64,000 bases of DNA from Microthrixaceae bacterium (GTDB lineage: Bacteria; Actinomycetota; Acidimicrobiia; Acidimicrobiales; Acidimicrobilacustridaceae), in NCBI GenBank assembly GCA_947446975.1, contig CANFHM010000005.1:1-64000 (forward strand), given 5' to 3'. Position numbers and translations under genes: made by a program. Below, piece after piece: positions 3,150 through 60,193 of the stretch (the stretch's first letter is position 1; each line of letters starts with the position of its first letter). The notes beneath the pieces were generated by a model, which had not been told where the DNA came from, did no database searches, and was given only the letters and a program-made list of their open reading frames with translations.

Positions 3150-3923
3150 ATGTCCCTGCACGCCGCGCTGGCCGCCGCCGCCACATTGCTGTCGCTGGCC
3201 TTCGCCCTGTCGACCTTCGAACGGTGGCTCTCCGGGCACCGTCGCCATGAGGCGGCCTGGACCATCTCGCTGGCGATGTTCGCCGCCGGTTCGGCCTCAC
3301 TGTGGGTCGGCGCCGCCATCGGATGGGGGGAATGGTCCTTCAAGTCCTTCTACCTGTTCGGGGCCATCCTGAACGTGCCGTTCCTCGCGCTCGGCACCAT
3401 CGAACTGCTGGCCGGGCCGGTCCACGGACGCCGGTGGAAGGCGATCATCTCGCTGCTGGGCGCCTTCTGCGCCGGGCTCCTCATCTCGGCCCCGCTGCTC
3501 GGCAGCATCGACCCCGACGTGCTCCCCCAGGGTCGGGAGATCTTCGGACCGGGCCCGCGGATCGCCGCCGCCGTGGGTTCCGGCGTGGCGGCACTGGTGA
3601 TCATCGGCGGTGCGCTGTGGAGCGCCTGGCGTCTCCTGCGGCTGCGTCGCTCGGGAGCTGCCGGGGCCAGCCCCTCCGAGCTCACACCGGGACGTCTGGC
3701 GCTGGCCAACCTCCTCATCGCCGCCGGCACGCTCATCCTGAGCGCGGGCGGGGTGCTCAACTCCGTCGTCGACGAGATGAACGGCTTCGCGCTGTCGCTC
3801 GTGGCGGGCATCGCCGTGATCTTCGCCGGGTTCCTGCTGACCAACACCGATGATCGCCGCACACTGCGATCACTGCCCGAGCCCGCACCCTGGCATGCCG
3901 ACACCGCCGAGCGGGCCGCCTGA
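3150..3923 (+). CDS. Polytopic membrane protein of unknown function
   Basis: About 257 residues with some seven hydrophobic segments separated by short polar loops, the first right at the N-terminus (AALAAAATLLSLAFALSTF). A conserved-looking loop GWGEWSFKSFYLFGAILNVPFLALG lies between helices 2 and 3. The C-terminus is short and polar. No catalytic or transport motif is recognisable, so no function is given. It stands divergent from rex and is probably a single-gene transcript. Start taken at ATG 3150 because of the -10 box six bases upstream. Confidence 0.7.
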   Translation: MSLHAALAAAATLLSLAFALSTFERWLSGHRRHEAAWTISLAMFAAGSASLWVGAAIGWGEWSFKSFYLFGAILNVPFLALGTIELLAGPVHGRRWKAIISLLGAFCAGLLISAPLLGSIDPDVLPQGREIFGPGPRIAAAVGSGVAALVIIGGALWSAWRLLRLRRSGAAGASPSELTPGRLALANLLIAAGTLILSAGGVLNSVVDEMNGFALSLVAGIAVIFAGFLLTNTDDRRTLRSLPEPAPWHADTAERAA

Positions 3924-3943
3924 GGCGGAACCGAGGTCGCCGG

Positions 3944-3975
3944 GGCCCCGGGTCGATCGGGCCCCGGGTCGATCG
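3944..3975. repeat. Tandem 16-bp repeat, two copies
   Basis: GGCCCCGGGTCGATCG occurs twice head to tail directly after the stop of the membrane protein. Each copy contains the palindromes GGCCCCGG/CGATCG, so the transcript can fold strongly. It may act as a terminator between the convergent genes at 3923 and 4002. Confidence 0.6.
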
Positions 3976-4001
3976 GGAGCTGGGTCGTTCAGGAGTTGGA
4001 G

Positions 4002-4091
4002 CTACTTGGCCAGCACGAACAACTGCATCACGGCGGCGCCGAGGATGACGAGCAGCAGCACACCGATCGAGAGGACGGTTCCTGGACGCAT
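4002..4091 (-). CDS. 29-residue single-helix membrane peptide
   Basis: A complete short frame runs from ATG 4091 to TAG at 4004-4002. It encodes a Met-Arg-Pro start followed by one continuous hydrophobic helix (VLSIGVLLLVILGAAVMQLF) and a Lys at the end. It starts 15 bases after the stop of the SAM hydrolase gene on the same strand, so co-transcription is likely. The clean single-helix composition in an otherwise unoccupied gap supports a real microprotein. Function unknown; a partner role for a larger membrane protein would be typical but is inference. Confidence 0.55.
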   Translation of the reverse strand: MRPGTVLSIGVLLLVILGAAVMQLFVLAK

Positions 4092-4106
4092 GGGGACTCC
4101 GGTGGT

Positions 4107-4970
4107 TCAGACGGGGCGGGGGCTGATGGACACGGGCGTGACGATGCCGGGCTGACGCTGCTCGTCGAGCGCCTCGATGGTGACGGCGCTGCCGGCCCGA
4201 AGATCGAACTCGGCGGCGGCCGAGGCACGATCCAGCACGACGGCGAAGAGGCCGTAGGAGTCGACGATGAGTCCGACCTCACCGGGTTCCACCGCGGCGA
4301 ACGCCCGCACGATCCGGGCCGAGCGGGAGGTGCTGTCGAACACGAGCCGCACACGATCCTCGAACCCGGCGAGGTCGTCCTCATCGATGTTGAGCTGTGC
4401 GTTGCCGTAGCGATCCACCCACAGCACCTCACCGTGGACTCGCCCCTCCTCCTCACGGGGGAGCGGCACCATGGCCGGGAACAGCGTGACCGGATCGATG
4501 AGCGGCCCGAGATCGGTGAGCTCGACACCCATGCACAGATGGGCGGCGGCCGGGGCGAAGATGTCGCGCCCGTCGAAGGTGGTGGCCTCCGCCGGGGTGC
4601 GATAGAGCTCGTTGGTGATCTCGACGGCACGGGAGGCACCGCCGTACAGACCCACCACCGGTGCGAGCAGACCGTTGTCCGGACCGACGAGCACCGCCGC
4701 ACCATCACCGATCTCGACGGCGATGGGACGTCGGGAGGTGCCGACGGCGGGGTCGACGACGGCCAGCACCACCCCGGGGCACAGGTAGGGGGCGCTGCGG
4801 GCGAGCGTGAGACCGCCGGCCCGCACGTCGTAGGGCTCGATGCCGTGTGAGAGGTCGATGACCCCGACCTCGGGGGCGATGGACCGGATGACCGAATGCA
4901 CCACCCCGACGAAGCCGTCGGTGAGCCCGTAGTCGGACAGGAACGTGATGGTGTCGTAACGCAGAGCCAT
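4107..4970 (-). CDS. S-adenosyl-L-methionine hydroxide adenosyltransferase (DUF62/SAM hydrolase)
   Basis: Family of enzymes that split SAM into adenosine and methionine using activated water; related to fluorinase/chlorinase. 287 residues. The N-terminal part shows TFLSDYGLTDGFVGVVH and IDLSHGI, then VVDPAVGT and VGPDNGLL, which bind SAM. The C-terminal beta-barrel includes WVDRYGNAQLNI, with the conserved D-x-x-GN. Nothing suggests a halogenase variant. A TAGCCT lies nine bases upstream of the ATG at 4980-4985. Physiological role of these hydrolases is unsettled; control of SAM level is the usual suggestion. Confidence 0.9.
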   Translation of the reverse strand: MALRYDTITFLSDYGLTDGFVGVVHSVIRSIAPEVGVIDLSHGIEPYDVRAGGLTLARSAPYLCPGVVLAVVDPAVGTSRRPIAVEIGDGAAVLVGPDNGLLAPVVGLYGGASRAVEITNELYRTPAEATTFDGRDIFAPAAAHLCMGVELTDLGPLIDPVTLFPAMVPLPREEEGRVHGEVLWVDRYGNAQLNIDEDDLAGFEDRVRLVFDSTSRSARIVRAFAAVEPGEVGLIVDSYGLFAVVLDRASAAAEFDLRAGSAVTIEALDEQRQPGIVTPVSISPRPV

Positions 4971-57142: not shown

Positions 57143-57171
57143 CTGATGGCCGCTCACCGAGCGGCCATCAG
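57143..57171. terminator. Perfect 13-bp hairpin with stop codon in the loop
   Basis: CTGATGGCCGCTC and GAGCGGCCATCAG pair exactly around ACC. On the minus strand the loop plus closing bases hold the TGA of the exonuclease gene. Lies between the convergent tatA and exonuclease genes, so a two-way terminator is likely. Confidence 0.75.
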
Positions 57172-58029
57172 CCGTTCCAGGCGCGACATCATGCGGGAGG
57201 CGCCGATGCGTTCGGCGAGCACCGGGAACTCGGGCGTCGGGCCCACCCAGCGAAGCTCGTCGACCGATTCCATCGTGGGTGCGTCCAGCGCGATGGTGGC
57301 GATGCGGCGGAACAGCAGGGCGAGCTCGCGCTGCTCGTCGAGTGTGGCGGCCAGCTTGGCGGCACCTCGGACCTGTACATCCCAGTCGGCGACATCGACA
57401 GGGATGTGCTCGATATGGCCGTACCGGGCGAGCACCGCGGCAGCAGACCTGGCCCCCCATCCCGGCAGACCCGGGAAACCGTCGGCGGTGTCGCCCACGA
57501 GGCCGAGGTAATCCGGGATGGACTCCGGGGGCACGCCGAACTTGTCGATCACTCCCTGACGATCGATGAGCACCCCCTTGCGCCGATCGAGCTGCACCAC
57601 CCGGTCGTCCACCACGCACTGTCCGAGATCCTTGTCCGGGGTGCAGATGATGACCTGCTCGACCCGGGGGTCGGCAGCGGCGATGGCCGCCGCAGCCCCC
57701 ATGGCATCGTCGGCCTCATGCTCGGTCATGGCGAACACGGTGAACCCGGCGGAGCGCAGCACGTCCTCGAGGAGATGGAACTGATCCCCCAGCAGAGGAT
57801 CGAGATCCTCACCGGTCTTGTAGCCGTCGTAGAGCGCGTTGCGGAAGGACTCCACCGTGTGATCGGTGGCGACCCCGATATGTGTGGCCCCCTCCTCGAG
57901 CATCCCGATGAGCGAGGACAGCACCCCACGGGTGGCGGCCACCTCGAGCCCGTCTGCGTTCACATGGGATGGGAGGGCGAAGTGATGGCGGAACAGTTCG
58001 TAGGTGCCGTCGACGAGGTGCACGCGCAT
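57154..58029 (-). CDS. 5'-3' exonuclease family protein (PolA N-terminal/FEN-like)
   Basis: 291 residues. FEN fold: HLVDGTYELFRHHFALPS with the first metal Asp, VLSSLIGMLEEGATHIGVATD, EADDAMGAAAAIAA, ICTPDKDLGQCV (metal Asp pair), and the helix-hairpin-helix IPDYLGLVGDTADGFPGLPGWGARSAAAVLARYG. It lacks the DNA polymerase part. Removal of RNA primers or flap processing is the family role. Start ATG 58029 has no TANNNT in the 34 bases upstream, which fits loss of its promoter by the event that cut the heliorhodopsin gene. Confidence 0.88.
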   Translation of the reverse strand: MRVHLVDGTYELFRHHFALPSHVNADGLEVAATRGVLSSLIGMLEEGATHIGVATDHTVESFRNALYDGYKTGEDLDPLLGDQFHLLEDVLRSAGFTVFAMTEHEADDAMGAAAAIAAADPRVEQVIICTPDKDLGQCVVDDRVVQLDRRKGVLIDRQGVIDKFGVPPESIPDYLGLVGDTADGFPGLPGWGARSAAAVLARYGHIEHIPVDVADWDVQVRGAAKLAATLDEQRELALLFRRIATIALDAPTMESVDELRWVGPTPEFPVLAERIGASRMMSRLERLMAAR

Positions 58030-58066
58030 GGGTGGAGCCTCCCACAGCAGTGCGGGCGGGCGATGA

Positions 58067-58738
58067 AGAACCGGCCCCCCGGGGGCGGCCGGATCGCTCA
58101 GCCTCACCAAGCAGTTCTTCGAGTTCGACTTCCCGATCGCCATCGCCATCTTCCTGTTCCTCGCCGCCGGCGACCATCTGTTGATGGCGATCCCGCCGGT
58201 GCGGCGCTGGTACGAGGCCAACCTCCGGTGCGGCATCAACTACGCGCGATGGATCGAGTACTCGATCAGTGCATCGATCATGATCCTGCTGATCGGCCTG
58301 CTCAACGGCATCAACAACCTCTACGCCATGATGGCGATCTTCGGCGTGAACGCCGCCATGATCCTGTTCGGCCTCGTGATGGAGCAGGTGAACCGCGACC
58401 GCACCACCGTGAACTGGTGGCCGTTCATCCTCGGCTGCATCGTCGGCATCGTGCCCTGGATCGCCATCACGTTCGCACTCGTCACCGCCGCCACCGACAG
58501 CACCGTGATCGACGGTGTGGCCGCCAACCCCGACGGCGTCCCCACGTTCGTCTATGCGATCGTCATCTCGCTGTTCCTGCTGTTCAACTGCTTCGCCATC
58601 AACCAGTGGCTGCAGTACCGGGGTCGGGGCCGGTTCGCCGACTACCTCCACGGCGAGAAGGTGTACCTCGTGCTGAGTCTCGTGGCGAAGAGCACCCTCG
58701 CCTGGCAGATCTTCGCCGGCACGCTGGCCACCGGTTAG
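58067..58738 (+). pseudogene. Heliorhodopsin, 5'-truncated (first helix missing)
   Basis: Retinal protein family, distinct from type 1 rhodopsins. The open stretch begins at 58067 with no ATG/GTG; the only usual start, TTG 58181, gives 185 residues. From TM2 on, the sequence is classic HeR: helix FDFPIAIAIFLFLAAGDHLLMA, RWIEYSISASIMILL with the counterion Glu at 58256-58258, MMAIFGVNAAMILFG, ILGCIVGIVPWIAI, FVYAIVISLFLLFNCF and VLSLVAKSTLAWQIF with the retinal Lys at 58688-58690. TM1 and the large first loop, about 65 residues, are absent. ATG 58063 is one frame off, just before a C6G5 run. Confidence 0.85.
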
Positions 58739-59679
58739 AGGCGGGCCCTGACCGCCTCCACGAAACGGACGGGCGAGGCTGGATCCACCATGAGGAAGAG
58801 GCTCGGCTCGAACAGTTCCGCCTCGAGCAGTGCCGGTGTGCCGTCGTCGAGTCGGACGAGGTCATAGCGGGCGTACAGGAGCTTCGAGTCGGGTGGGAGC
58901 CAACCCCGGGCGTGCACGATGCGATCGACCTCGGCGTCGACGACGACGACGAGTTCGCGCTCGTCGGCGGAGAGTTCGGCGGCGGTGATCTCCTCGCAGT
59001 ACTCACCGCCGCGGAGCGCTCCTTCGTCGTCGAGCAGCGGACCCTTGCGGAACGAGTGCGAGATGACACCATCGATGAACACGGTGCCGATCTCACCGAT
59101 CCGGTCCACCGATGCGGCGAAGGGCTGCACCATGACCGTGAACCCTGCGTCGAGGATCCGACGGCCGAGCGCAGGGGCGCCGGGGGACCTGTGGGCGAAC
59201 CGACCGGTGAGGCGCGAGCCGGCGGAGATCGTGGGTTTCACGATGACCTGTCGGGCATCGACCTCGGCGAGTGCCACGGTGAGTTCAGCGACCGTCGTGG
59301 CGTAGGACGTGGGCACGACGGCGACACCGGCGGCAGCCAGTTCGGCGAGGTACAGCTTGTCCATGTTCCATTCGATGAGATCGACCGGGTTGTGCATCGT
59401 GAGGAGGGGACGCCGGGCATGGAGCCACTCCCGGAAGTCGTCGAGGCGATCCACGTAGTTCCACGCGCTGCGCACGACGACGAGATCGAACGCCTCCCAC
59501 TCGATATCGGGGTCCTCCCACGCAGCGTGATCGAGATCGATCCCGGCGGCGGCGAAGGCCTCGACATGGAACGGATGGTCGAAGTCGTCGTGCAGGATCG
59601 CCGTGTCGAGCGTGGTGACGAACGCGACCCTCGGACGGGGCGGGCCGTCGGCGGAGGAGGGCGAGTGATCAGGATCCAC
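58735..59679 (-). CDS. ATP-grasp domain protein
   Basis: 314 residues from GTG 59679. Start RVAFVTTLD..., then DHAAWEDPDIEWEAFDLVVVRSAWNYVDRLDDFREWL, MDKLYLAELAAAGVAVVPT, VIVKPTISAGSRLTGRF (ATP-binding Lys), FVMQPF-like MVQPFAASVDRIGEIGTVFIDG, and LDDGTPALLEAELFEPSLF with metal-binding Glu. It resembles prokaryotic glutathione-synthetase-type ATP-grasp ligases, such as those in cycloserine-like pathways. Substrate unknown. Its start overlaps the SnoaL-like gene by 11 bases; its end overlaps the heliorhodopsin stop by four. Confidence 0.8.
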   Translation of the reverse strand: MDPDHSPSSADGPPRPRVAFVTTLDTAILHDDFDHPFHVEAFAAAGIDLDHAAWEDPDIEWEAFDLVVVRSAWNYVDRLDDFREWLHARRPLLTMHNPVDLIEWNMDKLYLAELAAAGVAVVPTSYATTVAELTVALAEVDARQVIVKPTISAGSRLTGRFAHRSPGAPALGRRILDAGFTVMVQPFAASVDRIGEIGTVFIDGVISHSFRKGPLLDDEGALRGGEYCEEITAAELSADERELVVVVDAEVDRIVHARGWLPPDSKLLYARYDLVRLDDGTPALLEAELFEPSLFLMVDPASPVRFVEAVRARL

Positions 59680-60193
59680 GGGACCAGAAGGCCGACCAGC
59701 TCGGCCAGGACTCTGGAACGGTGCCGCGTCCGTCGTGGTTGGTGGGCCAGTCGGCCGGCGGCTGGTCGAGCGGGCTGCGCTCGGCCTGCTGGCCGTACCA
59801 GAGCTCATGGATCCGACGGACGAACAGCCAGGTGCCGTCGCGGCGTTCGTAGGTGTCGCGGTACAGGATCATCTGATGGATCCAGCGGTCGCCGTCCTGG
59901 ATCTGGCCATGGCAGTACACCGAACCGGTGGCGTGGTCGGCGTCGAGGAGATCGATGGCGTGGGTCCCGACGTTCAGCATGGAGACCCCGATGCCACGCA
60001 GCGAGGCGTCGAACGAGGCTCGCAGCGCCGCACGGCCGTAGGTGTCGCGACCGACCCGCACGTCGTCGATGAACAGCGCCACGAGGGCATCGAGGTCGCG
60101 GGAATCGACGGCGACGGCGTAGTGCGAGGCCAGCTGTCGGATCTGTTCGTACGCGAGCAGCTTCTCGAGCGCGTTCTCGGGCAGGGACACCAT
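59669..60193 (-). CDS. SnoaL-like/NTF2-fold protein
   Basis: 174 residues. NTF2-like cone: KLLAYEQIRQLASHYAVAVDSRDLDALVALFIDDVRVG, GVSMLNVGTHAIDLLDADHATGSVYCHGQ, YRDTYERRDGTWLFVRRIHELWYG. The fold includes dehydratases, isomerases and binding proteins, so the role is open. First gene of a pair with the ATP-grasp protein. Leaderless start with TAGCGT six bases upstream at 60200-60205. Confidence 0.85.
   Translation of the reverse strand: MVSLPENALEKLLAYEQIRQLASHYAVAVDSRDLDALVALFIDDVRVGRDTYGRAALRASFDASLRGIGVSMLNVGTHAIDLLDADHATGSVYCHGQIQDGDRWIHQMILYRDTYERRDGTWLFVRRIHELWYGQQAERSPLDQPPADWPTNHDGRGTVPESWPSWSAFWSRGS

Follow-up and report, generated by a model that had tools for sequence, protein, structure and literature searches.

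A heliorhodopsin gene lacking its start and first helix in a Microthrixaceae draft genome, probably a null allele left by a recent microdeletion

A heliorhodopsin gene in a Microthrixaceae bacterium lacked the DNA for its start codon and first transmembrane helix (TM1), and has probably been knocked out by a recent microdeletion that left a null allele. The window (the whole stretch of DNA analysed, 64,000 nucleotides) was contig C5 in a draft assembly, which comprised 96 contigs, totalled 2.35 Mb and was 88.6% complete. Its features at this locus, some of them placed by comparison with the intact locus of a close relative (L031), were as follows:

57154 to 58029, minus strand: divergent 5'-3' exonuclease, intact (PF02739 and PF01367 profile matches)
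58030 to 58069, plus strand: remnant of the divergent intergenic leader (ungapped against L031 2774-2816)
58067 to 58738, plus strand: beheaded heliorhodopsin open frame, TM2 to TM7 (PF18761 profile match, translation)
58068 to 58095, no strand: GC-rich imperfect palindrome bordering the junction on its right, unremarkable (repeat search, fold test)
58070 to 58072, plus strand: deletion junction in its best placement, common ACC (comparison with L031; left end certain only to 58050-58072)
58256 to 58258, plus strand: counterion Glu codon in R-W-I-E of TM3, equivalent to 48C12 Glu107 (alignment to 6su3)
58688 to 58690, plus strand: retinal-binding Lys codon in SLVAKS, equivalent to 48C12 Lys241 (alignment to 6su3)
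58735 to 59808, minus strand: frame without a Pfam match (profile search)

The codons of the heliorhodopsin frame ran from 58067 to 58735 and were followed by the stop TAG at 58736-58738. Its translation matched the heliorhodopsin family PF18761 with an E value of 1.8e-78 and a score of 263.7 bits (cut-off 26.7), covering profile positions 47-242 of 242 (from 36 in a second search). An SxxxK motif carrying the retinal Lys and seven transmembrane helices are both given as defining features of heliorhodopsins in the available part of PMC8612252, and the topology of these proteins is inverted, with the N-terminus inside (available part of PMC6951262). The window frame had the retinal Lys in TM7 within S-L-V-A-K and the counterion Glu in TM3; it lacked a TM1 segment, and so the full seven helices, as well as a start codon from which to be translated. 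A hydropathy scan of the intact relative (L031) gave seven hydrophobic segments, and the same scan of the window frame gave eight above threshold, two overlapping pairs of which reduced them to six, matching TM2 to TM7 with none for TM1. The frame thus had TM2 to TM7 in common with 48C12 (6su3) and TaHeR (6is6), including the equivalents of 48C12 Glu107, His80 and Lys241, whereas the equivalents of 48C12 residues 1-46, comprising TM1, His23 included, and the initial part of extracellular loop 1 (ECL1), were absent (codon positions and 48C12 numbering were counted by hand on the translation and the 6su3 alignment). The original prediction, made from the letters of the window, had described TM2 to TM7 as typical, with counterion Glu, retinal Lys and S-L-x-A-K-S in place, and both the profile match and the structural alignment agreed. 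It was also right that TM1 is gone, but it overstated the loss of the first loop, of which T-G-P-P-G-A-A-G-S-L-S-L was still present.

No usable start remained in front of this core. A TGA at 58064-58066 shut the frame on its upstream side, and the first in-frame ATG, GTG or TTG was the TTG at 58181, within TM2, in keeping with the start codon having been predicted as missing. The ATG at 58063 had been read as displaced by one base at a C6G5 run; it was indeed out of frame, but the run held no indel in gap-free alignment with the two closest relatives and so gave no evidence of a frame error.

Comparison with the same locus in a relative, proposed as a check in the original prediction, located the missing DNA. 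The closest relatives found were G008 (locus L002, identical with L031, on CANFQA010000001.1) and G011 (L003, identical with L032, on WLCQ01000018.1), whose heliorhodopsins were 91% and 89% identical to the window frame over 218 common residues. Both encoded an intact heliorhodopsin of 268 aa, TM1 included, at the equivalent locus, with the ATG at position 2851 in both L031 and L032. Gene order was common to all three (carboxylase, tatA, exonuclease, heliorhodopsin, the frame without a Pfam match and a SnoaL-like protein), and the window was collinear with one G008 contig (G008:C1), a few insertions excepted. As in the window, the heliorhodopsin gene of G008 and G011 stood beside the divergent exonuclease; unlike the window, both relatives had the full leader, the ATG, the first 47 codons and an extra downstream frame. 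Relative to L031 the window lacked 178 bp (2814-2991), of which 37 bp belonged to the leader and 141 bp were coding, namely the ATG and 46 further codons, and it resumed at the Thr codon equivalent to codon 48 of L031. The ACC at the join belonged to both flanks, ending AAGAACC of the leader on the left and forming the Thr codon of T-G-P-P-G on the right, and AAGAACC stood 37 bp from the exonuclease start in the window and in L031 alike.

The right end of the deletion was identical in every alignment, and the flank on that side aligned without gaps from the breakpoint onwards; the left end was less certain. Ungapped, the leader at 58030-58072 was identical to L031 2774-2816 at 25 of 43 bases, with few matches at 58050-58065. 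The blastn match to L031 stopped at 58049 and restarted at 58070, and that to L032 stopped at the exonuclease start. Two automatic alignments, one with L032 alone and one with both relatives, placed the remaining 40 bp of leader next to the TM1 region instead. We preferred the left end based on L031 because that alignment has no gap between the exonuclease start and the common 7-mer AAGAACC, where it ends. Nevertheless, the weak similarity at the left end and the alternative alignments of the leader remnant count against a real deletion. The 23-mer spanning the junction had no match among viral contigs, an uninformative result.

We propose that one deletion of about 178 bp in the sequenced lineage or strain joined the exonuclease-heliorhodopsin leader to codon 48, with about 3 bp (ACC) common to the two sides. 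Such an event would have taken away some of the leader and the start codon, together with TM1, which carries the His23 equivalent, and the beginning of ECL1. Because no in-frame ATG, GTG or TTG precedes the middle of TM2, this is very probably a null allele, and the cell would make no heliorhodopsin, or at best a fragment incapable of binding retinal; presumably no functional protein is made. In the available part of PMC6951262, His23 and His80 of 48C12 mark the ends of a tunnel between TM1, 2, 3 and 7, and deletion of ECL1 (residues 38-63) from 48C12 abolished all retinal binding and left the protein aggregated. The case looks like ordinary gene loss and not like a new kind of protein. A split heliorhodopsin, with TM1 encoded elsewhere and supplied in trans, is scarcely conceivable: when the TM1 of a relative was searched for as protein and as DNA in the window's own assembly, the only match at E < 0.1 was the retained stretch, in an assembly that may lack about 11% of the genome, and a relocated TM1 was rejected on that basis.

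The age of the loss was addressed with a branch model over 218 codons of the window, G008 and G011 plus one of two outgroups (L033 or L036). The dN/dS ratio on the window heliorhodopsin branch was 0.027-0.031, as it was elsewhere in the tree (0.027-0.031), and fixing it at 1 worsened the fit by 5.4 (L033) or 8.8 (L036) log units. With L036, the likelihood profile supported a window-branch ratio of about 0.013-0.08, an estimate made unstable by a synonymous distance of about 3 per site on that branch. As the window-branch ratio equals the background, the loss is either recent or not in the organism at all; a recent loss and an artefact look alike in this test. If selection on the gene ceased with the deletion, no more than about 5% of the branch would have elapsed afterwards, by arithmetic from the 0.013-0.08 range. 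Long-standing decay was rejected by the codon model, and the originally predicted decay with a conserved core therefore fits in one form only, that of a recent loss whose remaining codons are still constrained as in relatives. The signature of purifying selection in the rest of the frame would likewise make the deletion recent. Neighbouring genes gave no sign of general relaxation, since window-branch dN/dS was near background in the carboxylase, below it in the SnoaL-like gene, and 0.057-0.059 against a background of 0.034-0.037 in the exonuclease. At 131 columns invariant in 15 other loci of the genus, the window had three private changes (those 15 loci had 0 to 12 each), one of them two residues past the retinal Lys, where AKSA became AKST.

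An open and constrained remainder could also mean that a six-helix heliorhodopsin still works, from a non-standard codon, from TTG 58181/ATG 58184, or from the ATG at 58063 with a +1 slip on CCC-CCC-G into the TM2 frame. Read from the sequence, slipping by +1 on the six C would yield M-K-N-R-P-P-G-A-A-G-S-L-S. Constraint is expected anyway after a recent deletion, three changes fell at columns otherwise invariant in the genus, none of the 78 informative genome_contigs loci lacked TM1 (see below), and 48C12 lost its retinal when ECL1 was removed. We consider a working six-helix protein very unlikely. Most improbable is that selection maintains such a protein in this lineage and that it is really made, whether from a non-standard start or by the slip on C6 that follows ATG 58063.

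The survey of relatives bears on both this question and the standing of the deletion. TM1 was seen in 17 of the other 20 genomes of the genus, and in the remaining three (G012, G017 and G018) the contig stopped at its edge within the gene. In the genome_contigs set, an N-terminus with TM1 was present at 78 of 80 loci and two were at contig edges; these 80 were the best of 163 confirmed loci and overlap with the same-genus genomes. The original prediction had raised the case of a six-helix form conserved in relatives, and such a form was looked for and found in none of the 17 informative same-genus genomes or the 78 informative loci, so that a shared TM1-less form was ruled out among them. Nor did we find a TM1-less heliorhodopsin described in the literature, including the available parts of PMC8612252, PMC7771536, PMC9601134 and PMC6951262.

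Across 396 drawn Actinomycetota genomes, 109 had a heliorhodopsin match, the window's included. Partial matches in G394, G329, G306 and G348 ended at contig edges, and by coordinates the match in G193 was divided over two contig ends. In five of the 108 other genomes with a match (G124, G026, G282, G201 and G427), the gene was interrupted inside the contig as assembled, like that of the window, although the match in G201 was weak, scoring under the cut-off. Interruption of this gene is thus no great rarity in Actinomycetota. In contrast to the clean loss of TM1 in the window, the pieces in these five lay in different frames or carried an in-frame stop or other deletions, and the window was the only case among the sets compared in which TM1 was cleanly lost and the remainder stayed in one open frame. 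The interrupted genes correspond to loci L146-L150, and G282 is a single-contig genome.

The main competitor to a real deletion, which we regard as unlikely, is that the organism has an intact gene and that library preparation, mixed-strain assembly or scaffolding dropped the 178 bp. The genome is a draft in many contigs, the remaining sequence in the window was fully constrained, and a heliorhodopsin match was retained in all 21 genomes of the genus, the window's included. This last count is a point against a real deletion, as it speaks for selection against loss and raises the odds of an artefact or a minority strain variant. In 5 of the 21 genomes (G003, G012, G017, G018 and G020; loci L023, L130, L129, L020 and L017/L131), a contig ended within the heliorhodopsin gene, whereas the exonuclease was cut in none of the 19 in which its orthologue was found, and the locus may therefore be hard to assemble. 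One partial carboxylase (G012) occurred among the 20 found, with an extra short piece in G016. The longest exact words shared between species had medians of 24 for the heliorhodopsin, 20.5 for the exonuclease and 29 for the first part of the carboxylase; those of the heliorhodopsin were not clearly longer than those of its neighbours and thus do not explain the contig breaks.

Against an artefact, both flanks of the junction were continuous, in ancestral order and free of N. The roughly 3 bp common at the join would be too little for an assembler collapse, as an assembler presumably requires far more overlap. Among 61 ORFs of G008 compared with the window, no frame break was confirmed: only o249 and o172 matched in two frames, the former an intact gene preceded by a non-coding extension and the latter antisense, opposite the exonuclease. 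In o64, o193, o162, o223 and o78, 19 to 117 first residues were left uncovered, which may reflect wrong starts. The palindrome at the junction also proved ordinary. Its arms were 13 nt at 85%, the window held 20 clusters of similar near-palindromes, and its fold was no better than that of shuffles (z 0.04). It lay almost wholly inside retained coding sequence; the assembly collapse at a GC palindrome that had been suggested for this site was accordingly rejected as a specific cause, as was collapse at a repeat. We infer that the deletion is present in cells, beyond the assembly alone.

If the deletion is real, it would be an early step of heliorhodopsin loss in a genus where all 20 other genomes keep a match, and lineages with and without heliorhodopsin could be compared. 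In 13 of the 21 genus genomes, the window's draft among them, the search detected no type-1 rhodopsin, so this may be an organism without any working rhodopsin if the deletion is real. For the retinal-making enzyme family PF15461 there was no match in the 21 genomes, and the controls gave none either. Should the gap prove artefactual, a normal heliorhodopsin is present in the species and annotation would overlook it. Neither outcome alters what is known of the heliorhodopsin family.

The divergent exonuclease was 82-83% identical to its orthologues in the two closest relatives. The original prediction had attributed to one deletion, or one assembly collapse, both the headless heliorhodopsin and the lack of a -10 box in front of the exonuclease; the lost start and TM1 are explained in this way, but the promoter argument failed its control, since TANNNT was absent within 150 bp upstream of the exonuclease in 9 of 11 relatives as well. 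A small stand-alone exonuclease stood divergent to the heliorhodopsin, with a spacer of less than 300 bp, in the 11 relatives read; at L038, L043 and L047, about 1.6 kb separated the two genes. Elsewhere, the window had about 1.6 kb extra relative to G008 at 41.9-43.5 kb, and G008 had about 4.1 kb extra near window 18.6-18.7 kb. In L031 and L032, a frame resembling an SDR-like oxidoreductase by eye lay at about 3655-4523, between the heliorhodopsin and the next gene. Heliorhodopsin adjoined the next gene without this frame in the window and in several more distant relatives, and the SDR-like frame looks like an insertion in L031 and L032. In the window, the heliorhodopsin and the next frame ran towards each other, their stop codons overlapping in TTAG (58735-58738).
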